A DNA stretch of 64,000 bases, taken from the NCBI GenBank assembly GCA_021234155.1, contig JAJEKV010000095.1, positions 124,001 to 188,000 of the forward strand. Reading direction: 5' to 3'. This DNA comes from Isoetes taiwanensis (Eukaryota; Streptophyta; Lycopodiopsida; Isoetales; Isoetaceae). Below are positions 6,304-62,450 of the stretch, piece after piece (the first letter of the stretch is position 1; every line of letters starts with the position of its first letter). Made by a program: the position numbers and the translations under genes. The notes under the pieces were generated by a model. It saw only the letters and a program-made list of their open reading frames with translations, had not been told where the DNA came from and made no database searches.

Positions 6304-8033
6304 TCAGAACCATTTCTGATATTTTGCTTTATGAAAGCCGTTTTTGTTGAAAGCCTCAATGAGCACATATATATCTTTGGCAGCATCCCATGCTTCAGAG
6401 TGGGCATAAACATACGGTATAATTTGGGATATAATAACCCTGGATGCCTGCCCAAATGGCCTGCAGCTATCAGCCCTGATAAACCTGTTAACTTCAAAGG
6501 GTAGCTTGGTTCTTTTGTCATATCTTGTGACTTTAAAAGTCCCTTTGTTGCAATCCTTGACCTGTATAGTAATATTTAGGAAGTTGCACTTCATGCCTAT
6601 TGCATCTTCACTATTAATTCTATAAGAATATTCAGTTTCATCTTTTATTCCTAGATACTTCATATTGTAGATTGTATGCTCAGCATCTTCAGTTACAAAT
6701 TCCATAATTCTTCCACCATTAATGATGTTTAGGTCGTCAATATACCTTGCAGCATGCTGGAATCTGTACACATCAGACATTCTCCCATAATAGGCTAATT
6801 TTAAAATAAATCTAAGTTTGAACCATGCAAGATATAAGTTGCACCAGGCTGGGCTGCAAGCAAAACCCATGGGAATCCCTTTAACCTGTTTCCAAATGTC
6901 ATTTCATGTTTGCAGATAACAGTTGTACAGTAACCAAGTATTCATAACCTTGAATTTTTCTTTGGTAATCAATCTCCAGCTAACATACTCTTTACTTTTC
7001 TAAGACTTGGCCCACTTGACCACTATATTATCATTTTTGCATTTAATTAACATATCAAAGTATGTTTTTTCTTCTCTCATATACTGCCAGATCATGTCAT
7101 AAATATCATTGCATATCTCATTGATTCCCTCATCTCCAAATAAGGGGATGTTCTCATAACATTTCATTATGTCTGCTGAAAAGACATTATGCACTTTATT
7201 TGGGAGGTTCAGTATCAAATCATAAGATGAGTTGACCATCCAACATGCATTAATTCTTTTGGTACTCCATATTCTGTATTTTGTTGTCATCTTAAAGCAG
7301 ATGTTAGGCCATATTTCAATACAATTGTTCAGAATGCTAGTAACAATGGCTGCAACAATGTATCATGTGCATTAGTTAGCCATCTGTATTCCCCTTTATG
7401 TGCTTTGAACGTTGCCATAAGATATGGTAACTTCCTATTCTGGAAGCATAAGTTTACCACTAGCATTAGCATTATCTTATCTTATTCTTGATAGCCTTTT
7501 AATATTTGGTTATTGTGTTTGGTGATGGGGCCTAGTCCCCAGGTTTTAGATGGGCTATTGCCCTTGCATGTGTCGTCCCATAACCCGTTGGGTTCCCGTG
7601 GACGTTAAAATTTCTTATCTTATCTTATCTTATTCTGGCCCTGTAAATCATCAATAAACTTCCTAATATCTTCCCTGCATTTGTCTTTTATATTCTCAGG
7701 CTTTAGTAGACATTTTTCAAAATCATCACTTTGGAGTCTGCTTTCAGCCATTTCAGCAATGTGTTTTGGGCATATAAATATTGCATTATTTGCTGCTTTG
7801 TCAAGTCCTGCAACATACAAATTTCTATTCAGCCAAATTATATTTTTCTTGACTTCTTGGTCTAACCACAGAAATCTCTTGGTCTGCACTGAATTTTTTA
7901 ATTCCACTATCTCAGAATGAGCCATTTGTTGGAGCATTATGCTAATATTCTGAATATCATCAAAAGTAAGGTCCAGAAGTTTGAACTTGTGCACATTAAA
8001 GAACTGCTGACATAATGTACCAAATTCTTCCAT
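6304..8033 (-). pseudogene. Reverse transcriptase of the retroelement, broken
   Basis: Coding signal runs 8033 to 6304 on the minus strand in at least three pieces. The first (8033-7620) has AGLDKAANNAIFICPKH, comparable to the DKG region N-terminal to Penelope-like RTs. After the 7489-7621 insert comes LPYLMATFKAHKGEYRW, an RT finger motif. The piece 7290-7000 has VFSADIMKCYENIP, the domain A aspartate. The last piece (6870-6304) has GFACSPAWCNLYLAW (block B/4) and RYIDDLNII (catalytic YxDD). It continues with a thumb-like region including YDKRTKLPF and ISQIIPYVYAHS and ends at KAKYQKWF. No GIY-YIG or other endonuclease follows. Catalytic residues persist, but frame breaks at about 7000 and 7290 plus the insert make it non-functional. 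Confidence 0.75.
7489..7621 (+). mobile_element. SINE-like insert with TTATC tail and 15-bp target duplication
   Basis: The 15-mer atcttatcttattct occurs at 7474-7488 and again at 7622-7636. Removing the 133 bp between them plus one copy reconnects the two halves of the reverse transcriptase. The insert ends in TTATC units rather than poly(A). It has a GC-richer core, including ggggcctagtcccc and the words taacccgttggg, typical of short non-LTR elements. No clear pol III A or B box was identified, so its origin could be the 3' end of a larger LINE. Confidence 0.7.
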
Positions 8034-8039
8034 AAATGC

Positions 8040-8969
8040 TTGTATGCTAAGGCTATAATCAGGGATATGATTTAGTCCATAAGAAAATGCCCTTCTCAGT
8101 TTAAAATTATGAATAATCTCCAGGTTGGTAGTTCTAATGTGCCTTATAGATTTGTCAATGAAAGGTTTGTATACTACATCTCTGATTTGATTGATGTATT
8201 TTCATGCAAAAATCGTTATATCAACTAATTCTGTACCCCTTTCCTGCAACACCTCATAAAGGATTGTATGAAACATTCTTTTAATGCTTAGTGCAACTCA
8301 TAAAGGATTGTATGAAACATCCTTTTAATGCTTATATCCGTTGACATCTTTAACTATCATTCTGAGCTTCAAGTTTTCAGCCTACAAAAACACTTTAAAT
8401 CAGGATTCATGGTATAGCACATAAACAGCACAATTATAAAAAGTAAATTGTTTGATTGAGGGCCAAATGGTATCAGACAAAATGTAAATCAGTTTTTTAA
8501 GTAGCTTCCATAGCTCATAGGGTAAACTGATAAAACATCCCTTGGCTGGGTATAGCAGAAAATCAAAAAACTTCTCTACTGAGAATCTGGAACACAATCC
8601 AGTTTTGAGAGAGTGTCATCTTCTAGTGAAATGATTTCATTTCCTCTTTTAGTGATTGAATATTCTTCACTGTCCTTTGCATTGTTATCTCTTGTAGCTC
8701 CCGGCCCTTTCATTTTTGGGTCTTGGTAATCCTGGGCGGCATCCTAGGGGTTATCATTTTTCTTTGTTCATTTGAGTTGGGATTTCTAGAGTACTTTTTG
8801 TCCCAAAACTCAGTTCGATTTGCAGAAATTTTTGCCTTTTAGAAAGCTGACTGGTCTGATCATCTTTTCAGCTATGTCTGCCATCTTGTTGTTACCAAAG
8901 AGAACTTTCAGATTCTTTTCTGGATAATTGGCAAAAGATATAGTCATGGTGATCAAATTCTTCCTGACT
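8040..8969 (-). pseudogene. Degenerate middle part of the retroelement ORF
   Basis: Minus-strand frames 9007-8810 (MGDAVLAYISYLEVRKN...) and 8597-8400 continue the 391-codon frame after a shift near 9000. Stops and shifts separate them from the reverse transcriptase. A short direct duplication containing cataaaggattgtatgaaac occurs twice at about 8253-8335. No domain is recognised in the predicted peptide. Confidence 0.45.
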
Positions 8970-10145
8970 TCAAGGTACGATATGTATGCTAAAACAGCAT
9001 CTCCCATGGATTTCTTTGTTCAGCAGTTTAGAGATAACCATTTTTGACATGGGGGAGGACCCGGGATAGAGTATTTCCATGTGATTGATCAGAAACCATA
9101 TGCCCTGATCGAACCATATAATCCCACATTTGCATTCTTCATGCTTATTCTTCTTGTATGAGAACTTAGTCTTCTCACATAAACATTTAAAGTAAGGACA
9201 ATGTGTTCTCCACATTCTTTTAAGGAAAAAGTCATCCCTGGTAATATTTGGGAAGGCCATATGGCCTTTCTGACTGATTTCTATTGGAGCATCCACTATG
9301 CATTTTTGCTCAAAGAAATCCATTTTAAATCGCAGATTTACCTCAAGAGTCTCGAAAGTTTTTTCCAATTTTAATGCAGCATACTTGGTAGTCTTTATCT
9401 CATCTTGTGATATTCCTGCAAGAGCAATCCACGTGTCAACATCTATGGGTGCTAAGGCGCCAAAATTTTGGCTCTTCCATATGGCGTGGTCATATAGGAC
9501 AGCATAGCATTCCACTGTTTGTTCAATTATTACTGGAAAGCATGTGGAATTAGAAAGAGTCAGCTCTGGTACTTTATTCTCCTTCTTATAATTTTCAGAT
9601 GAATCCTTTTGAGAGATCAGATCCTTGTTACTATACCCAATACTCAGCATGTCTTCATCAGTAAGATCCATGTCGAAAACTAAACAATCAGTCATGTCTT
9701 TTTTCACTTTGCTAGGTTTCTGTTTGCTGGAAGTATCTTCTTTACCAAATGTAAGAGGCATGATGTTATTAGCTTTCTCCAATGCCATGATGCCAATCAT
9801 AAATTTGTTTGCTGCTTCATCCTCAAAACATGTCCTCTGATACAAAATACTGCTCATATTGCTATAGGTATCAGTCAAAATATCCTTACATTTTGAGAAT
9901 TCGAAGTTCACCTTCTTCATCAACTGGAATTTTGCAAACCATCCGCTGAATCCCAAGTATGATACTGGTGACAAACTTTTGTCAAGAAGGTTGAAAGTAA
10001 TATAAGAATGCACATCCTCGTTCCTGATACGTCCTATAATGGTTTGTACCGCCATATTTGGACTGTTGATGTTGCATTTGTCATACTCGAGCATAACAAG
10101 CTCCTTAATCCAGTGATTGTAAACATCTTGATCTTCTGATTGCAT
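8970..10145 (-). CDS. N-terminal ORF of the retroelement, unknown domain with Cys/His cluster
   Basis: A 391-codon open frame starts MQSEDQDVYNHW at 10145. It is the longest coding stretch of the element and lies upstream of, and in the same direction as, the reverse transcriptase. I recognise no family. About residues 325-350 show CPYFKCLCEKTKF followed by HEECKCG, a possible zinc-binding cluster; C-x-C clusters are known in some Penelope-like proteins. The mid-section is acidic and lysine-rich. The frame ends by a shift near 9000, so the original protein was longer. A splice-acceptor-like tttag lies just upstream of the ATG, so an earlier exon in the terminal repeat (13839-13474) could have been joined to it; this is inference. 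Confidence 0.6.
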   Translation of the reverse strand: MQSEDQDVYNHWIKELVMLEYDKCNINSPNMAVQTIIGRIRNEDVHSYITFNLLDKSLSPVSYLGFSGWFAKFQLMKKVNFEFSKCKDILTDTYSNMSSILYQRTCFEDEAANKFMIGIMALEKANNIMPLTFGKEDTSSKQKPSKVKKDMTDCLVFDMDLTDEDMLSIGYSNKDLISQKDSSENYKKENKVPELTLSNSTCFPVIIEQTVECYAVLYDHAIWKSQNFGALAPIDVDTWIALAGISQDEIKTTKYAALKLEKTFETLEVNLRFKMDFFEQKCIVDAPIEISQKGHMAFPNITRDDFFLKRMWRTHCPYFKCLCEKTKFSYKKNKHEECKCGIIWFDQGIWFLINHMEILYPGSSPMSKMVISKLLNKEIHGRCCFSIHIVP

Positions 10146-10719
10146 ATTGTCCTAAATCAACACAAAATAAATTCTTAGTATATAACTTAATGAAATCAAA
10201 TCTGCAGTACCTGAGAAATCTGCCTATCCTGATCATGGTTGTTAGTATAACTAACAAACTGGAATATGATAAAAAAACCTTAAATCCGCATCAGCAGACT
10301 TTTGTCCAGTAAAGACCTTTGAAAGGTAAGAACTAGGACCATTTAGCAGCCCTGATCATAATCAGGTACTGTTATAACCAGGCCATGATCAGATAGGTAA
10401 AACAATTACTTGACATAACTTTATGCCATAAATTTACTGCCCAAAACTTATGCCATTATTTAAGAATAGGACATACAATGATAGTTCTAAACATATTTAG
10501 GCAATGCACAACCATTTGCCCACTGTATTAAGAAAGCCTATTACCTGCACCCACAATTAGAATGGTTGAACAAGAATGGGATAGCAGGCGTCATAGGTTT
10601 TCTTAAGGTATCCCCTCTCACTTTGCTAGCATTCAATTGAAAACAGAAAGCAAAGTAACTTAAAGATCCCTAGATTTAGTAGCCTACATAATCTATAACT
10701 ATTCTTAGGCTACATCATC
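10146..10719 (-). other. Untranslated or intron-like part of the retroelement
   Basis: AT-rich leader between the terminal repeat block and the 391-codon ORF, without coding signal. On the minus strand it ends in a plausible 3' splice site directly before the ATG at 10145. Confidence 0.4.
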
Positions 10720-48530: not shown

Positions 48531-49540
48531 TTAACGTTTTCTTTCTTTTTTACCAGAGTTAAGGAAACAAGGGTACCTTCTGTAAGTGGATTCAAGTCCA
48601 ATTCTGTCTCAATGTAAGCAGCATAGAGTTCTCGAAACTTGGAGCAAGCAAGAAGTTCAAAACAAGGTAAATTTGGAGCTATATATGGTATTATCCTATT
48701 TTCTGGACTGAGGAGATGGGGCCAGAGGTAATAATATATCATCCTTTTAAACAAATACCCTTAAAGCTACTAGGGAGTTGATGCTTTTAGAAGATGCATA
48801 AGTTGACATTGCAGAATTATGAAGAACTAGCTTTGCTGCCTCTCTTAAATTAATTAGTAGTACTTTGCAGGATTTGTAACAAAAAGAAGAAAGATACAGG
48901 TCAAGAATAAGTTCCAGCTAGAGAAATAAGTTTAGATCTACCATTTAAGTAGATGTGTACATTGAGGACCAATTCTTTCTCAACATAAGTAGCACGTAGT
49001 TTGAGCACATATGAAGAAGTTTAAAAAGAGGTAATTCTGGTTGTTTGGGGCTAAAGAGATGGTAGTCTACTTCATTAATGCAAGTTGCTTTACTATTCGG
49101 GTCATTTGTTTTTTGTTTTCAATGCTTACCTCCCATCCAACATGTTCTTGAAGTGCACAAAGGAATGTAATGTTGGACATGGTCCACGGATTGCAATTCT
49201 ATAGGGAAGGCAAAGAAGAAATTAGAGCTTAAATTATAGAAAGCAAGGAATCATACCTGTAGTACGAAATTGCAATAAGAAGCAAAAGCAAATAGAAAAA
49301 GAGCATCATAGACAACGTGATTGTTCAGAAGCAAAGCAACAAATGGAAAAAAAAACCCTTCATTTATGATGGGCAATTGAATTGGATTGAATGTCAAACT
49401 TGGCTTTCAATCCCATCTCATTCCATCCAATGATTAGGATCTATAGTGTGACATCGCAATAACATGGTGAAAACAAAAAGAGGATCATATGCCACTCAAT
49501 TGTACACAACACGAAGACACATTCACTCGCTTATATATAT
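48531..49540. other. Non-coding stretch upstream of the GTPase locus
   Basis: A minus-strand frame ends at 48485 (ACSKFRELYAAYIETELDL...). It has no recognisable domain and runs into the repeat. Otherwise AT-rich. Confidence 0.4.
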
Positions 49541-49690
49541 TCTATATAGATAGCATCACAACTAAATAAAATTCTAAGACATTCCTATTGAAGACATTCT
49601 ATATAGATAGCATCACAACTAAATAAAATTTTAAGACATTCCTATTAAGACATTCTATATAGATAGCATCACAAATGAATAAATTCTAAC
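49541..49690. repeat. Tandem repeat, three units of 56-57 bp
   Basis: Units start at 49541, 49598 and 49654 with tctatatagatagcatcaca and continue through a(c/a)taaata and ttaagacattcctatt. The third is partial. Confidence 0.9.
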
Positions 49691-49845: not shown

Positions 49846-50912
49846 CTAACCTGTATTTCGCACAAAAGAATGAAGAATATGAGTCAAGAAAGCTTGTTCA
49901 TCTATACCTTTGAGGCTATCATCTCTTTCATTCTTATACCAATTCCTACCGTCCCGGTACATGCGGGAGCATATAATAAAGAGTAACGCTTCAGGTGGAA
50001 CATTCTTCTGGCTGTAAAGGCTCTTCTTCAATTCTGCCTGAAATTCATGAGCTAAGCTCTTCTTCAATTCTGCCTGAAATTCATGAGCTAATTCTGCCAT
50101 TCTTTTACCCTTCCGCTTCATATCATAAGCTTTGTTCTTTAAGCTCTGATCTGCTTTGGTTCGAACCATAGCAAATTCTTTGTTCCAATTTGCGGCTTCT
50201 ACAGCGAGTTGAACATCTACCTCTAAGAATCTATCACTGGTTAAAATGAGAATAAAATCAAAGGCGTAGAGCTTTTTATCCTTAAAATAAGTTGCTGCTG
50301 GATGTTTTAAAGTGCCAGCACCAGGAAGCTCCCAAAAAACAACATTGGGAAATCTAGAATTACTATAACGCTTTACTTCATCAGTGGTTTCAGTAAACCC
50401 GGCCTCAGCAGCACCTAAACAAAATTTACTCCTCAAGGTGAGCAGGTTTGCAAGGAAAAATAATAATTAATCTTAAGGGCAGAAAGAAGCTTACCAGAAC
50501 CCTTGAGTTGGAAGAAGCTGTTGATGAAAGTGGACTTACCAACTCCGGAGGCTCCACAGACGGCAAAGTTGAAGTGGTTGACGTGGTCAATACCAAGGTG
50601 ATTTTTTGCAGTTTTAAGAAGAACATCGCTTGGCTCATCCGAGTCTGGAGGGTGGAGCTGGAGTGGCTTTTTAGGCTGTTTATTGAGCGAATCTAGCACA
50701 GCTTCAACATCTGCAGCTTCAACTCCAACACCTACTCCAACAGCTACTCCAACAGACGCTGTTGCTGCTAATCCAAAAGTCCATCCAAAACATACTCCTC
50801 TTCCAAGACTTCTGACCCAGCCTGGCGCCTTTATACGGAGCACAGAATTCACAAACTCATCCTGGACAACATTCTTTACAGATTCACTTCTCTTCATCAT
50901 CTTAGGATTCAC
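49846..50912 (-). CDS. IRG-type GTPase (interferon-inducible GTPase-like), gene A
   Basis: Two exons are predicted, 50912-50495 and 50414-49846. They are joined at G|gtaagc (donor) and gtttag|gtgctgc (acceptor) over an 80-bp intron and give 328 residues. A hydrophobic Gly/Val/Ala stretch (residues about 42-66) precedes the GTPase core. G1 is GASGVGKST (120-128), a possible switch threonine is in TETTD, G3 is WELPG (167-171) and G4 is RTKAD (224-228). The spacing and the W(E/D)xPG...HPAATYF context resemble immunity-related GTPases, which remodel membranes around intracellular pathogens in animals; a plant role is unknown. G3 has Glu where most GTPases have Asp. A 36-bp duplication repeats LAHEFQAELKKS. 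Gene B lies head-to-head at 51741. The 328-residue product is shorter than typical IRGs (about 400). Confidence 0.8.
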
Positions 50913-51740
50913 AAGCTCATGCTTTCGTCTATAGCTTCACTAATAGGGAGCAATGGTGCGCCTGCCGCAGTGACTCGAAACTTCCTCAACGATGCAAAAC
51001 TTCGCAGAGACCAGCAAAGCTTGGATTCCATAGGAGCAGCAGAAGATAAAAATTTGTCTACAGAATTTGATATAAATAAAGGGAACTGACGGCTGCATAA
51101 TTACTGAAGAGATTTTTTTTTTAAGTTTTCGACATGGAACGTTTTTGGCTCAGCGCTGATCCACCACCACATCGAAGATAATGCCTGTAGATGAACATGG
51201 GTGGTTGGATGAACATGGCACGTTGCTCTGCAAGCTGGTTGGATGAATATGGCACGTTGCTGGCTGGCGACGAGGAACTTGCCGAAGATCATCTTCCCCC
51301 CGAAGACTCGACCTCAAAGACTCAGGTTTTTGACCTGAATCAAAAGTAATCACGAGCATTTCTCAACGCTCAGGTTTTTGACCTGGATCCAGATTCTCAG
51401 GCCGCCAATCTCAGGGGAAAGCACCCTTATTTATTGTCGATATATTGTCTTCATCAAGTACTAGCCACGATGCTGAGTCATTACTTAAGTACCTTATCGG
51501 CAAAATGATTCACTGCTCAATGTAGAAAATAGACGCGCTTGCTATTAGTAAAGCTAAAACTGAAGAAGCATGAGTTTACATCTGCTATGAGTAAAGCTAC
51601 GGGCATGAGCCTGTGCTTGAGGACGTTGTGAATGCTCTGGTTCGTATAAAGTTTCTGGTTGATACATCAGGAATCCCTGGTGTTGGTGTTGCCGTTGTTG
51701 GAGGTGCTGGTGTTGGCGTTGGTGTGAGTTTGCATCTGCC
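50913..51740. promoter_or_regulatory. Shared upstream region of the GTPase pair with two W-box repeats
   Basis: 828 bp separate the two divergent start codons. TTGACC (W-box core, a WRKY site often found in defence genes) occurs at 51330-51335 and 51378-51383. Both sit inside a repeated phrase, ctcaggtttttgacctg. A 34-bp duplication with ggttggatgaa.atggcacg lies at about 51203-51270. An AT-rich TATA-like stretch on the minus strand is at 51068-51077. Directly before gene B, 51640-51735 encodes a Gly/Val-rich peptide like the N-terminal region of gene A, perhaps a duplication remnant. Promoter function is inferred from position. Confidence 0.45.
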
Positions 51741-52858
51741 ATGAGTGAAGCTAGAAAGAATCAGTTTGTAGAAGCTCTGGACCATGGAAATAGAGTCTTG
51801 CTCAAGAATGTTGGAAAAGCAGTTGCTTATGCAACAGGAGGAGCTGCTGGAACCGTTGTTGGAGCGGCTGTCGGAGGGACTCTTGGAATTGCTGGAGTTG
51901 CTGGAGCAGTTGCTGGAGGGATTGTTGAACTAGCAACGGCTCTTGAAATGGTGACTGCTATAGCGCTTACTGGAACTGCTGTTGGAGCTGTTGGAGGTGC
52001 TGTAGGTACTGTAGTTGCTGTTGGAGCTCTGCTTCATTGGCTCAGCAACCAGCGTAAAAAACCACTCGAGGTCCACCCTCCAAATTCTGAGGAGGAGACA
52101 AGTGATGTTCTTCTTGAAAATGCAAGAAAGGAACTTGGTATTGACCACGACAACCACTACAATTTTGCAGTGTGCGGAGCCTCTGGAGTTGGTAAGTCAT
52201 CTTTCATCAACAGCTTCCTCCAACTCAATAAACTCAAGGCTCAAGGTAAGCTTCCTTGTGCCTTTGAGATTAATTATTGCTTTTTCTTGCAAACTTAGCT
52301 CGACCTGTGGGATAAATTTCGTCAGGTGCTGCTGTCGGGGTTACTGAAACCACTAATGAGATAACGAGTTATGCGAATCTTAAATTTCCCAATGTTAAAC
52401 TTTGGGACTTCCCTGGTGGTGGCACTCCAAACCATCCAGCAGCAACTTATTTTAAGGATAAATGTCTTTACGCCTTTGAATGTATTCTCATTTTAACCAG
52501 TGATAGATTGCAGGAAATAGATGTCCAACTGGTTATGGAAGCCACAAAGTGGAAAAAAAACATTTTTATCGTTCGAACCAAAGCAGATCAGAGCTTAAAA
52601 AACATGGTTTATGATATGGATGCGCCAGGAAATAAAATGTCAGAAATAGCTCTTAAATTCCGGGAAAAAGTGAAGATGGACGTTTACAGCCAAAAGAACG
52701 TGCAAGCTGAACTGTTGCCCCTCATTATATGCTCTCGCATGTATGACGATGAAAACAAAAAGAATTGGTACAAGCACGAAGAGGACGATAGCCTGAAAGA
52801 GATGGATGAAAAAATTTTGTTAGATTTAATGCTTAAGTCCTGTGGGGTAGAAAAATAA
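51741..52858 (+). CDS. IRG-type GTPase (interferon-inducible GTPase-like), gene B
   Basis: Exons 51741-52245 and 52326-52858 join at tcaag|gtaagc and cgtcag|gtgctg across an 80-bp intron at the same site as in gene A. They give 345 residues without stops. Residues about 27-100 are almost entirely Gly, Ala, Val, Thr and Leu, with recurrent GxxxG spacing (GGAAGTVVGAAVGGTLG), resembling a glycine zipper able to insert into membranes. The GTPase core has G1 GASGVGKSS (146-154), TETTN (switch I candidate), G3 WDFPG (195-199) and G4 RTKAD (252-256), then a charged helical tail. These match IRG-family motifs. The start is the first Met after in-frame stops. Function is inferred: a membrane-associated GTPase, possibly defence-related given the W-boxes. 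Confidence 0.85.
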
Positions 52859-55880: not shown

Positions 55881-57326
55881 ATGCCGCCAATAACGTGGAA
55901 AAAATCAAAGCCTACGAACTAAAGCTAAAAAACATGAAGCCATGTTGTATGGTTACCTGGCCATCATCTGGCAAGTCGGAAACACATTTTAGAGCTCAAA
56001 TGACAACATGTGGATTTGGTGAATCACCCAAAACATTGTTACAGATGACGATGTAGTTTCATTAGTAGACAGTGCTGAGGAACATCCCTTTTGATGGTGG
56101 GGCAGAGCACATGGATAGGTCTGAAGATCATGGTCTGAATGAGTTGGAGGATGAGATGCATCCTAAATTGCTGCAAAATGTAAATTTGTCCAATAAGGCA
56201 TATATATAATTAGGATAAAGCTTCAGGGCTCGGGCAAAGTCAATACGTGTTGCAATTTTGACTGTCTTGTTCATAATTTTGTAAAGAATCCGAACGTTTT
56301 GAATGAGATACCTTTTTGTTGGTCCAGTGCACTTGGTGTTTTCTTCAATGTCTAGTTTTTGGAGTCCTTGAAATTTCTACTAATTTTTTAAAGCAAATTA
56401 GGGTGCTGAAAAGTGGTTGCCAACATTTTTTCATGGTATCTAAGTTCAATCACCTAAAATGTACCTAAAATGTCAAAATTGTCACACTTGTCACGCATAG
56501 ATCGCAAAAATGGACCTTTTTGAGGGAATTTTAGGGAATCTTTTTAAGATTCCTTTTAAAGTGCATTTGGAGCAAATAAGTGCGTTTCATTTTAAACATT
56601 GTTCTGGTTGTTTCAAATGTTAAACTTTGGGACTTCCCTGATGCTGGCACTCCAAACCATCCAGCAGCAACTTATCACAAGGCACCCAAAATTAAAACAC
56701 TATATGGTTTTTCCCATGGTTATGACTAGAAAAGCATTCTAAAAACCAATGTGTGTTTGGGGGTTAATTTCATTAAAAACCATATGTGGCTAAACTAACG
56801 TGTTCTCTTGTAAGGTTTATGAGGCTGGTATTATGGCATGGTAATACGAAATGGTTTCTTTTTAGAGTTTGTGAAAGTGGTAAATTGATGTAGTATATCA
56901 TAGTGTTTTACGGGTATGGTTTTTCTATGTGGTTAAATATAGTGCTTTATTCATGTGCCTGTAACGTGGTTGATCGTTGTGGTAAACTAAGATGGCTAAA
57001 TCTCGTGGTCAATGCACATGGTTCGTATTGTGTTACATGAAAATTACCATTCTTGTTAGTAATTATTTGTTCGAAATATGCATGGTTTTGTTATGCATAA
57101 CTTCATGGTTATCATTTATAAACCAGTAATGATAACTAATAGCGTTTTATTGCTTGAAGCATTTGAAATTTAGTAAACTAAAACCAATAACATTTTGTTG
57201 TTCGAAGCATTTTATATTTAGTCAACTAAAACCATTAAGGACTATGAATGGTTTCTTATATATTGTAGTATTTATTATTACTGCTACATTTTCTTTCATC
57301 AAGCTCCTCACTAACAACAAAAATCA

Positions 57327-57356
57327 GGGAGCAAGGGGATTTGAACCCCGACCATT
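57327..57356 (-). tRNA. tRNA-like 3' half with B-box (pseudo)
   Basis: On the minus strand, GGTCGGGGTTCAAATCCCC, then TTGCTCCC, is a T-arm with GGTTCAAATCC (pol III B-box) and a 3' acceptor strand. No matching 5' half (GGGAGCA) lies within the expected distance. It is a tRNA fragment or SINE remnant inside the CACTA-like element. Confidence 0.45.
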
Positions 57357-58270
57357 GCCAAAACTAGTAAACAATGATAAATGTATTTACAAAACAGGTT
57401 TAGTTCAAATAGAATCCATCTACTATAGAAAAAAAAAGTAAGTACATAAAAATCAAATATGTTAATAACTAACATGCAAGACCTCTAGTTTGGTCCCGTG
57501 ATATAACAAGGCCCTAGAAATTACACCTATGATATTCGACCTGGAGACTCGAAGATTACATCCGAACACTAGCTTCAGCTTTGAAAAACCCTTGATGCAG
57601 GTGGTGTTCGCCATAGCTGGAAGAGTAGAAAACAAGAAAAAGATGGTGTAAAAAAACATGGCAAATGCAATTTCATTTGAAGCATCTGATCTGACGGCAA
57701 GCTACCAAGTATCATCCGTAATTTGACTCCAGATGCCGACCAAAATCTCCTGCATAACAAAACAAAAACAAAAACAAGGGAGTCTGCTTAAAAACCGTAG
57801 CTAAATAAATGGCATAGGAAATAGAGCTTCTACCAATTTATGTGCAAAAGTGACAGAGCAGGAAAGAAAACAGCAGAAACAGAACGTATAAGCTTAAGTA
57901 CAAACAAAAAAACCAGCCGGATAATAGATGCAACAACCAAAGCAAGTAAAGACAGCAAGAAAAAAGAAAACCTTTTTAGTTCACCAGACCTTTGGAGGTC
58001 GATTTAGCAAGAAAAAAATATGTGCAAGAATGTATCAGGTAGCATCAGCGGCAGCGCCCTCGCAAGCGGCAAAAGAAAGAGGAGAGAAAGTAACCCAGAA
58101 GAATAAAAAATTTTATCACAGACTCACAGATCGATCCAGTCTCTTTTGTGCAAACCGCAACAGATTCTGCAAAGAGGAGGATACACAGCTGTTGAAAAAT
58201 CCGACCTGCTAGAAACCCTCTACAATCCGTGCGCTTTCCTCAGCCAATCCGTCCCCGATATGCCTGTGCC

Positions 58271-58310
58271 TCTATGCCTGTGGTAGACCTCTCTATGCCT
58301 GTGGTAGACC
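58271..58310. repeat. Tandem duplication of 21 bp
   Basis: The unit ctatgcctgtggtagacctct is repeated once. Confidence 0.85.
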
Positions 58311-60945
58311 TACCTCTGGCTGCCATAGCCATCGCGTTGGCCGTTGCCCTCTCCACCCCTCTCTATCATGATAGACGTTGCCGCCTAAAAATGGAATCCA
58401 AGGAAACATAAAAGCTTAAATTGTTTTAAGTTTTAAAAGTACTTTTTTCATTGTCTCTCGTCCCTTTTTTTGGCGTAAGGGATTTTTGGCACGACTAAAA
58501 GGTAGGCGACAAGCGTACACTAAGGCATTGAAATGCCTACCTATGGACCTTTTGACAAAATAAGTTATGTACCTTTTTTGTGCTCCCTTCATCATAGAAC
58601 TATGTTAAGGCCAAAAGGTGCGCGTAAGTCACAAGAGGTATAAAATGGCTCATAGCTTTAGCTACCAAACTAAGGCAAGAAAATACATGTAAGCTGAAAG
58701 GTTATAACTACAAGTGGCATATGCAAAGCTTGAGTGCTAAATGGAAAAAGTCCACATGCAACCTATGAAGTTAGAATTAGCTGTGCTCCTTAAATATCAT
58801 ATGCAAGCAATGAAGTTAGTAAGAGTATGAATTTTCCATTGCATCTCCGCCCTTATAACACCCTTGTAACTATAGAGCCTCGGATTAATTTTGCCCCCAT
58901 GAGTACAAAAAAAATAATAATGAGCCAATGAGTTGTGTCACAATCACATGCATCCCATTGTTAGTAAGTGTCAGGATCTAATTCTAAAAATGGGAATCCA
59001 CTACACAACATTGTGTGGGTCTTTAATTACACTAGACCTAGACCGTGACTATGCATATGTATTTCAAATAAAATATGTCCAAAACTTAGCATGTAATGCA
59101 TACGCCCAAATTTTAGTAGATCATGAGCAAAATATGTGTATACAACACCAATATTCTCCAAGCGCCATCTCTCATTTGAGTATGCACCCAAACAAAAGGG
59201 GGAAATTTATACAAAATCCAGATTAGTACCAATTTCTGCACAGTCCAGCCTAGCGCCGATTGAGATTTCTGAAACCGAGTCTAACCTTGATCCATTCATA
59301 CCATTTGAGAAGGCTAATTAACATGTAAGAAGTAACTACCGGAATTGAAAAAGCTAAAAATCAATGGTTTATATCAAGTGGGCGCACACTATGCAAACAA
59401 AAAGAGAATCTGAACTTCTAGAGACCCATGACCATGTTGACACCACGTTATACTTATTGACATTCTCATGCATTGCCCTAGCTACAATGCATACTATCAA
59501 CACCTGAACAGATATATGTGCGTATGTCAATATACATACCAAAAAGTAGCAGTATAGATAGAAGATACAACAAATAGTCACTAACAAAATCATTTCGTTC
59601 GAAAATAATCTATTTGTCTATAGAAGCAAGCATTTTTGAAATATCTGCCAATGACTTGAGGTTGCACTTGATCAAAGTATCCACAAAAAAACATGTCTCT
59701 TCTTTTGTGTTTCCCTCTGGAATATATAGAACATAAGACTTTATGCCCGATATGTATGAATTGAGAACAAATAATTATATTCCATTCTTCCCATAGTTTC
59801 TAAAAACATATAAAGTGCACCATCTTGAAATGGAAGAGAGATGTTCCAAGGTTTATTCAAGCAACACCTTTGGAACTTTTACCACAAATCACTAAACAAA
59901 CATTGTGTCATACACATGTGGCTGAGAAAGAAAAAAATGTCAGATGAAGGAAGAATGCTTCTTGTACGAAGTCAAACATGCACAAGTCTTCTACAAAGAG
60001 CTTGTGCTGTATTTTGCAAATAAAAACTGATAGAAACCACTATTATATGTTGGTTCTCTAAAGATAAAAACAATTTATAGAAGATCAAACAATGAGAAAC
60101 TACAAAATCAAAAGTTTACAAAAACACCATATCTATAGTGGTTTTGATAGTGGTTAACTACACCGACTGTTTTTTGGATGCCTTATGAGCAACGACTATG
60201 GATAGCCACATCTTTTAGGTGATACTTATGAATAATTACCATGACAATTAACTGAGTATGAAACTATGATACAAACTACAACCATTTTATATATACATTG
60301 TGATAGAAAACTAACATAAATAACCACCATAGCATTTAAATTGACACAAAAAACCATGCCATAAACTACTTCAATTTTGTGCTAATAGAAAACCTATATA
60401 GAAAACCATTTCTATATTTAAAGTGGTGTTGAAAAACCATGTCACAAACCACTGTCCATTTAATAACCATACTATGTTAAAATGCCAACATGAATGCCCA
60501 CCATTAATGCAAGAAACAATGTAATAAACTAATATCAGTTATAATAAACCACACTATAACAAAAAATCAACATGAATAACCATGTACTAGATGTGAAAAC
60601 CATTATGGTATATGGTTTTGATTAAGAATGAAATTTTTTGCATAAAAAACCACATTTATAGTGGTTTTTCAATGGTTTATTATAGTGGTTAATTTTTTGG
60701 GTGCCTTGTGTATTTTAAGGAAAATTTCTTTACGCCTTTGAATGTATTCTCATTTTAGCCAGTGATATTGCAGGAAATAGATGTCCAACTGGTTATGGAA
60801 GCCACAAAGTGGAGAAAAGAAACTTTTATCCTTCGAACCAAAGCAGATCAGAGCTTAAAAAACATAGTTTATGATATGGGTGCGTCAGATATTAAAATGT
60901 CAGAAATAGCTCTTAAATTCTAAAAAAGTGAAGATGGACGTTTAC

Positions 60946-62450
60946 ACATGCTGCAACCAAAGAAATGTTTGGTACGTAGTGGATATATATTTACCTGTTG
61001 AACTGTTCCTAAGTACTTGAATGGTTTGTGTCTGGTCCTGTTACCGAAAAAGACTATTTTGGTTTTTGTAAGATTTACTGTCAACCCTGTCTTTTCGCAG
61101 AAGATCTCTAGCAGTTTCAGTAACCTATGCATTCCCTTGTTTTTTGTGGCCATCATGCTCAGGTCATCGGCATATAACATGATGGGTACTTTGGTTTTCC
61201 CTAGTGTGGGAGCGTCCATATCCCCTTGTTGTTCTGCTATGAAGTCTTGTAATGCATCTATGTAGATTCCGAACAGTGTTGGGGATAGCGGGCATCCTTG
61301 CTTGACTCCCGTGTCGCAATCTATTGCTTTTCCCTCTTCTTCCATTTTTGCATATACACTATAGTACAATCTCGCAATTGCCCCTACCATGTCTCTTGGT
61401 GCCTGCATATCTATAAGTCTCTGTATGAGCTTCTCCCTCGGGACTGTGTCAAAAGCTTTCCTGAAGTCCAAAAGCAGCATATGACTTTCTTCCCCTGGTT
61501 TCTATTCTGTTCTATTAATATCCTGAGGGTTATTAAGTGATCAGTGGTTAAGTATTCCGGCCTGAAGCCTGCCTGCCCCTGTGCCCTCAAATCTACTATC
61601 TCTGCCCATTATTTCAATTTATTGTCTAAAACCATTCCAAACCATTTTGCAAAGATGGAGCTCACCATTATTGTTCTGTAATTCCCAGGTTCCTGTCTGC
61701 TCCCTCCTTTGTGTAGGGGTATGACCCTGTTGTACGCCCATCTGTCTGGGAGTCCCATGTGTATTATACCGTTGAATATATATGTTACCTATTTCACTAT
61801 AGCAGTGTCTGCACATTTTAGCAATTCCACAGTTAGTCCATATAGGTCTGGAGCTTTGTTGTTGGCCATGTCCTATTTAGTGCTATCATCACTTCCTGTA
61901 TGCTGAAACATGGTGTATCCATCTCCTGTAGCTCTGGTATTGGTGCGGGGAAGGCCCCGGTCTTGTACAATTTCTCAAGGTATCTCTCCCAGCCGGCTGC
62001 CCCAATGTCTCCTTGTGTGTTCCCGTTTTTCTTATTCCCTTGTCCTTTTCCTTTGAATCCTTTCCAGAAGTTTCGGGGTTGTTTCTTGAGTAGTTTGGCC
62101 AGTCCCCATTGGTGTTGTACCAAGTTTTTGCTTCTCTTTGTCTTCAGCATTCTCAAATATACCCTTTTCTCAGTTTGATATGTTTCCTTTCCTTTCTGCG
62201 CTTTGACCTTTCTTTTTTGTTCCCTGCACTCATCATCGTACCAGACTGAGGCCCTGAAGGCACTATTCCCCCTTTTTCTTCTTCTTTTTCCAAAAACTTC
62301 TGTTGCTACCTTCACTGTTATATCATTAAGCATGTCCCCATTTTCGTCTGCCCTGTGTTCTCCCCAGTTCCATCTTCCCATTTCTTCTTTGATAGACTGC
62401 ACAAATATGTCTGCATGTTTACCCTGGAATTGTATTTTCAACTTTTCCTC
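60946..62450 (-). pseudogene. LINE ORF2 remnant, reverse transcriptase
   Basis: 62441-61833 encodes the linker before the RT (ASVWYDDECREQKRKVKAQK, FSIQEVMIALN). After shifts, 61816-61619 carries the NYR region in another frame. 61480-60946 carries RT blocks with LDFRKAFDTVPRE, QGCPLSPTLFG and the catalytic YADDL, up to KPFKYLG. At least two frameshifts (near 61840 and 61500) and loss of the C terminus make it inactive. Confidence 0.8.

Follow-up and report, generated by a model that had tools for sequence, protein, structure and literature searches.

A head-to-head gene pair with an IRG-type G domain in the quillwort Isoetes taiwanensis and its kinase-fused relatives

Related systems and the layout of the locus

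Immunity-related GTPases (IRGs) have been studied almost wholly in animals, where they are GTP-binding proteins that pair by way of their G domains and work on the membranes surrounding pathogens (PMC1297648 in part, otherwise general knowledge). At its time, that 2005 survey found no unambiguous IRG outside the vertebrates (PMC1297648).

The closest plant parallels for the arrangement of the genes described here are the paired NLR genes, which also lie head-to-head as divergent pairs with one faster-changing member. The present genes differ in lacking NB-ARC and LRR domains and in being GTPases and not of the AAA+ type. InterPro and similar databases probably list plant IIGP entries, so that no first sighting is claimed, and statements on the literature refer to open-access full text. 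Within that scope no paper on plant IRGs was found among those listed, nor any on plants under PF05049, in agreement with an earlier note on this DNA, which considered a paired plant locus to be little described. The word 'GTPase' is absent from the main text, as far as it was available to a word search, of both Isoetes genome papers (including PMC8566536).

The window, the whole stretch of 64,000 nucleotides of I. taiwanensis DNA that was analysed, carries two divergent genes, A and B (Table 1). Their position and head-to-head orientation are as the earlier note had described, and so are the quoted motifs, GASGVGKS and RTKAD in both proteins with WELPG in A and WDFPG in B. Each gene has a single predicted GT..AG intron of the same length and phase, at the same codon in A and B. 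Neither gene has a damaged frame, splice site or motif, here or in the copy of the pair at locus L012. Exon 2 shows 59% identity between the two proteins, as does the aligned part of exon 1. Both N-termini are hydrophobic (best 19-residue Kyte-Doolittle mean 1.87 in A and 2.06 in B), the hydrophobic stretch being long and Gly/Ala/Val-rich in B and shorter in A, which is without part of the N-terminal segment found in L012m. The matched core of L012m is 12 residues shorter than that of gene A, and the tandem duplication is private to A. Between the two start codons, the ends of the intergenic stretch (50901–51185 and 51531–51740) are similar to the L012 copy. W-box enrichment between the paired genes was considered and rejected: exact copies of TTTTTGACCTG occur at 51327 and 51375, and there is no excess either here (2 versus 0.95 expected) or in the L012 copy (0 versus 0.77 expected).

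Table 1. Coordinates of the gene pair, its parts and related features in the window (position 1 is the first nucleotide of the window)
Feature	Position	Strand	Description
Unit copied at L012	49379..52958		pieces 87–97% identical to C1106:268500-276500, 95 kb away
Gene A	50900-49846	minus	324 aa, two exons joined in frame
Gene A exon 1	50495..50900	minus	N-terminal hydrophobic glycine-rich segment and P-loop
Gene A P-loop GASGVGKS	~50555-50532	minus	within exon 1
Gene A predicted intron	50415..50494	minus	80 bp, phase 1, GTAAGC..TTTAG; from splice-site consensus and frame
Gene A exon 2	49846..50414	minus	G3 WELPG, G4 RTKAD, end of G domain, stop
Gene A tandem duplication	~50019-50090	minus	12 residues in frame, LAHEFQAELKKS twice; in exon 2
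Intergenic stretch between A and B start codons	50901..51740		840 bp, possible shared promoter
Gene B	51741-52858	plus	345 aa, two exons joined in frame
Gene B exon 1	51741..52245	plus	~70-residue Gly/Ala/Val-rich hydrophobic segment and P-loop
Gene B P-loop GASGVGKS	52176-52199	plus	within exon 1
Gene B predicted intron	52246..52325	plus	80 bp, phase 1, GTAAGC..GTCAG; from splice-site consensus and frame
Gene B exon 2	52326..52858	plus	G3 WDFPG, G4 RTKAD, end of G domain, stop
B-like IRG exon-2 relic	56613..60944	plus	third, broken copy, split by ~4.03-kb insertion
Insertion in relic	~56677-60710		inverted ends beginning CACAAGGCACCC; 3-bp target-site duplication

The insertion that splits the B-like relic is presumably CACTA-like. 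Abutting the end of the relic is a LINE-like reverse-transcriptase fragment (60920–61501, minus strand; RVT_1, 2.8e-27). Elsewhere in the window (6304–10151, minus strand), open frames of 199, 193 and 393 aa include a YIDD-type motif and are reverse-transcriptase-like; the 199-aa and 393-aa frames had no Pfam match at E<=0.001. The segment downstream of gene A (49248–49689) is 97–98% identical to sequences beside L012m and L028m, compared with ~90% for the genes, and represents a recent repeat or a gene-conversion tract.

Identity of the G domain

The check that the earlier note had proposed, a Pfam search, returned IIGP (PF05049) as the top match for both proteins, far above chance (7.2e-33 and 114.6 bits for A, 8.8e-30 and 104.5 bits for B, against a curated cut-off of 24), with other small-GTPase models weaker. 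AIG1 (TOC/GIMAP-type), named in that note as an alternative, gave no Pfam match at E<=0.01 for A or B, and AIG1/TOC GTPases are ruled out on this ground. Among PDB sequences, gene B matched mouse IRGs (Irgb10, 6e-21; Irga6/IIGP1, 6e-20; and others) ahead of any other GTPase. With a profile built from 14 family cores, the mouse IRGs reached 133 bits (1.1e-37) and Der, the GTPase ranking next, 48 bits (8.5e-12), among the best 60 of 101 matching PDB sequences. The residue following WxxPG is G in gene B and A in gene A, small and non-Gln in both. The G3 motif of gene A carries E where an IRG-like G3 has D, a substitution that, judged from the motif, may weaken catalysis.

The likeness ends with the G domain. 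Only positions 33–186 of the 375 in the IIGP profile were matched by A and B, both of which end soon after this domain, and none of the listed IIGP matches in the whole genome extends past profile position 212. The C-terminal helical domain of the p47 IRGs is therefore missing from the genes read, and the label 'IRG-type' given in the earlier note holds for the G domain and fails for a full p47 IRG.

That A and B belong to a family with an IRG-type G domain is nearly certain. Convergence within the TRAFAC GTPases, by which the plant group would be unrelated to animal IRGs, is unlikely: it would agree with the missing helical domain and the lack of any match beyond the G domain, and the 2005 survey treats G-domain likeness alone as weak evidence (PMC1297648), but the family profile separates IRGs from the next GTPase by more than 80 bits, and not only W-D-x-P-G and RTK-x-D but also the surrounding residues are common to the family and mouse Irga6 over ~165 residues.

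Compared with the vertebrate p47 IRGs (Irga6/IIGP1, Irgb10, Irgb6), the quillwort family is alike in its G domain (GxxGxGKS, WDxPG, RTKxD), in its lineage-specific expansion and clustering, and in the MGN start of three members (L015, L023, L029), which we take to be a possible myristoylation site and which is followed by a coiled-coil-like stretch. It differs in lacking the C-terminal helical domain, in the glycine-rich, hydrophobic N-terminus of A and B, in fusions to kinases and in the single intron after the P-loop; the intron of fish irgf genes lies elsewhere, at the end of helix 4 (PMC1297648).

Relatives were also sought outside eukaryotes. Two pattern scans of prokaryote genomes, with a reach limited to close relatives, gave 52 and 19 pattern matches, none confirmed; viral contigs gave one, also unconfirmed, and no relatives were found in phage records. 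Plasmids yielded eight weak records at E<=0.01, the best with 34.5% identity over half of the query (E 1e-10). Among plasmids, the relative closest to the IRG core (L056; Deinococcus sp. QL22, NZ_CP097151.1, 8580–12909) belongs to a couple of GTPase genes lying side by side close to a BREX-1 pglZ gene, in a phage-defence neighbourhood.

The family, its pairs and their tempo of change

Whole-genome searches covered one assembly (1,658,258,908 bases, 1110 contigs), in which Pfam IIGP gave 50 exon-level matches and a search with one family protein 86. The window together with 35 loci fetched from the assembly yielded 45 gene models, several of them broken (e.g., L010m, L026m, L036p, L043p2). The P-loop exon was found in 41 models, and in 40 of these it lies in an open frame separate from the rest, the sole exception being L039, where both are in the same frame. 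The intron split of A and B, as predicted from these frames, is thus a family trait. The earlier note had concluded from the shared intron that the pair arose by inverted duplication; an intron common to the family is no evidence of how the pair originated. The family appears, from these models, to have expanded in the quillwort and to be turning over quickly. Two 4-kb stretches, L031 (C1106:1032000-1036000) and L042 (C1106:1055500-1059500), are 96.4% identical, and their IRG models have zero tip length in the tree, owing either to duplication in the very recent past or to a duplicate in the assembly.

Head-to-head pairs occur at seven places in five lineages (the window, L010, L011, L012, L013, L019 and L024). 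Orientation was counted over 57 loci, made up of the 45 models and 12 further matches of the family-protein genome search, leaving out six weak matches on C1085, C907, C1043, C1041, C1034 and C1053 and counting three weak C919 matches apart. Neighbours within 5 kb comprised seven head-to-head, three same-strand and no tail-to-tail cases (7/10, P 0.0035 against one quarter), and those within 10 kb seven, six and none (7/13, P 0.024); adding the C919 matches gave seven, seven and one (7/15, P 0.057). The head-to-head excess is suggestive only, because the cut-offs were set with the data already in view and two of the pairs are copies of two others.

The tree was built from 44 of the 45 models, one 72-residue fragment having been dropped, and includes some long branches, among which the joins are unsure. 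Gene A (WINm) clusters with L012m and L028m (support 100/99) and gene B (WINp) with L012p1 and L027p (100/100), while L010p clusters with L011m and L010m with L011p. By this grouping, the window/L012 and L010/L011 pairs were copied as units. Sisterhood of the two partners was rejected at p<0.05 in three of the five pair lineages (L010/L011, p 0.00015; L024, p 0.023; L019, p 0.040) and not at L013 (p 0.32). For the window pair, the A group and the B group are neighbours in the tree with weak support (85/50), which neither shows nor excludes an old inverted duplication.

The copying is recent (dS 0.06–0.11), and the two genes have diverged unequally since. Among 681 core sites, gene A and its copy show 18 differences, of which 10 are nonsynonymous and 8 synonymous, with a dN/dS of 0.31 (NG86) or 0.49 (YN00); gene B and its copy show 67 in ~700 sites (53 nonsynonymous, 14 synonymous), with a dN/dS of 0.96 (NG86) or 1.11 (YN00). 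Against its two close relatives, B gives values of 0.96–1.14 (NG86), near 1, and against L027 there are 44 nonsynonymous and 10 synonymous differences. In its exons, B differs from its copies at 67/714 and 56/705 sites, and the introns have changed at 4/80 (A) and 3/80 (B) sites since the unit duplication. The divergence of B since then is ~3.6 times that of A, a significant difference in totals (Fisher P 8e-8), whereas neither the N:S contrast of A with B alone (P 0.067) nor the comparison of the B exons with the B intron (P 0.099) is significant. Retention of open frames in the B copies has a neutral probability of 0.07 for 70 random changes, and is only mildly unlikely. The inequality is due to diversifying selection on B, to relaxation of B or to homogenisation of A: a dN/dS near 1 could be relaxed constraint, and gene conversion could make A look slow.

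The kinase scaffold and possible function

At six loci, as read from the open frames, the IRG core is joined in frame to a scaffold consisting of a helical region and a TKL kinase. At L025, L027, L035, L038 and L039 a single open frame holds a Pfam protein kinase together with an IRG P-loop. The arrangement recurs at L040, a copy of L038 that is read only from mid-kinase onward because its scaffold match contains two in-frame stops. In a further locus, L034, the order is reversed, with the kinase after the IRG core. Grouping the six N-terminal kinase fusions as one clade of IRG cores was rejected (p 1.3e-5), and the fusions need at least five changes on the tree, or six with L034. Between L027 and L035, identity of the scaffolds is 90.2% across a 1772-bp stretch made up of the helical region, the kinase and the linker. 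This likeness stops at L035:1705, where the IRG core of L035 starts (its core match begins at 1700); on the other side it stops at L027:2469, which leaves 262 bp to the core match of L027. The cores themselves belong to the two deepest groups, the joining of which was rejected (p 1.8e-71), and hence the IRG cores carried by one scaffold can be of two different kinds.

The scaffold forms a family in its own right: with 86 of 1468 candidates scored, at least 90 matches reach E<=1e-20. Twelve scaffold loci were fetched from the 90 matches. Pfam places a second kinase on the scaffold at L047:122-2872 and L048:695-2461, and a GH18 domain at L049:456-2201, L050:162-2000, L054:362-2500 and L055:1-1815; L052 resembles the GH18-bearing loci by eye. 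At L044 a vestigial B-like N-terminus is left and at L053 there are broken kinase and IRG pieces, and no partner domain was recognised by eye in L045, L046 and L051. In this genome the scaffold forms a modular kinase-fusion family.

In profile searches the scaffold kinase was TKL-like, matching CTR1 (7.7e-41), TAK1 (~3e-38), 6lba (4.5e-37) and 6ka4 (1.5e-34); the last two, among the solved plant kinases matched, are presumably Arabidopsis MLKLs. The top score against the scaffold profile was that of 9p9u, labelled EGFR (1.7e-55), without any stretch passing alone. The match to 6ka4 starts ~40 positions ahead of the kinase, and the N-terminal 198 residues of L027, compared with a view to an MLKL-type HeLo four-helix bundle, matched no solved structure in the PDB at E<=1. 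L027, a kinase-fused relative of B, is without the glycine-rich segment, which is thus not always needed.

The scaffold may be compared with the plant tandem-kinase and kinase-fusion resistance proteins, in which a kinase scaffold likewise carries varied partner domains. The quillwort partners are an IRG core, a second kinase or GH18, and the IRG core sets them apart from tandem-kinase proteins. Plant MLKLs combine a helical N-terminus with a TKL-type kinase (PMC9950082), as the scaffold, with its presumably helical N-terminal part, may also do. They differ in having no IRG core, and the scaffold differs from them in its N-terminal part, which is without a structural match, in scoring higher with CTR1 than with 6lba, and in that most copies carry the DLKP and DFG motifs.

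Anatomy and evolutionary pattern can be read off the sequences, and a functional account built on them would run as follows. A and B would be small GTPases, probably attached to membranes to judge from their composition, transcribed divergently from the stretch between them, with the glycine-rich segment anchoring or inserting the protein into the membrane. On GTP loading, the G domains may pair or oligomerise, by analogy with animal IRGs. The two proteins would be co-expressed and work as a pair, A as the steady partner and B as the fast-changing one exposed to changing targets. That the G domain has repeatedly been joined to the kinase scaffold suggests a common pathway for the two activities, and is as expected if both parts already work together; normally the GTPase would report to, or be read by, scaffold-type kinases. 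The output would be a local defence response, with A/B upstream of or beside the kinases. This partner mechanism is somewhat doubtful as a whole, while the chances for a defence role of A and B are about even. The overall reading, that these are paired membrane GTPases with an IRG-type G domain, from a quick-turnover family linked to defence, is given a probability of roughly 45%.

The proteins could instead be housekeeping membrane GTPases of organelle or vesicle traffic, the expansion being neutral birth and death and the head-to-head order a leftover of local inverted copying. The constraint on A (dN/dS 0.31), the several broken members and the presence of tandem neighbours as well (three within 5 kb, six within 10 kb) would suit such a history, which is nevertheless not very likely, as the repeated kinase fusion on separate branches and the fast change in B together with recent copying better fit a family driven by conflict. 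It is improbable that the pair is decaying, with B, and perhaps A, young pseudogenes of intact appearance. Both genes of the window pair, and L012 as well, have kept their frames, splice sites and motifs, and the B intron has changed less than the B exons, the opposite of selection-free decay although not significantly so; the dN/dS of B near 1 against both close relatives, the third window copy broken by a transposon, and the private duplication and shortened N-terminal segment of A are what decay would lead one to expect.

Returning to the defence-linked reading, its widest form is a lycophyte system of cell-autonomous defence with IRG-type G domains as its interchangeable cores, a distinctly doubtful proposal. 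If true, the cores would be used alone in divergent pairs of steady and fast-changing membrane GTPases, and, plugged into the helical-plus-kinase scaffold, would turn GTP-driven assembly into a kinase signal. Interferon, which induces full-length p47 IRGs, does not exist in plants. Such a system would correspond, in a plant, to the IRG immunity of animals and have an output of its own. A large set of plant proteins that have no helical domain would separate the role of the G domain from that of its animal partner domain, and divergent pairs together with repeated kinase fusions offer a testable link from GTPase defence to kinase-based plant immunity. As lycophyte immunity is thinly studied, the family provides a concrete list of candidates for testing.
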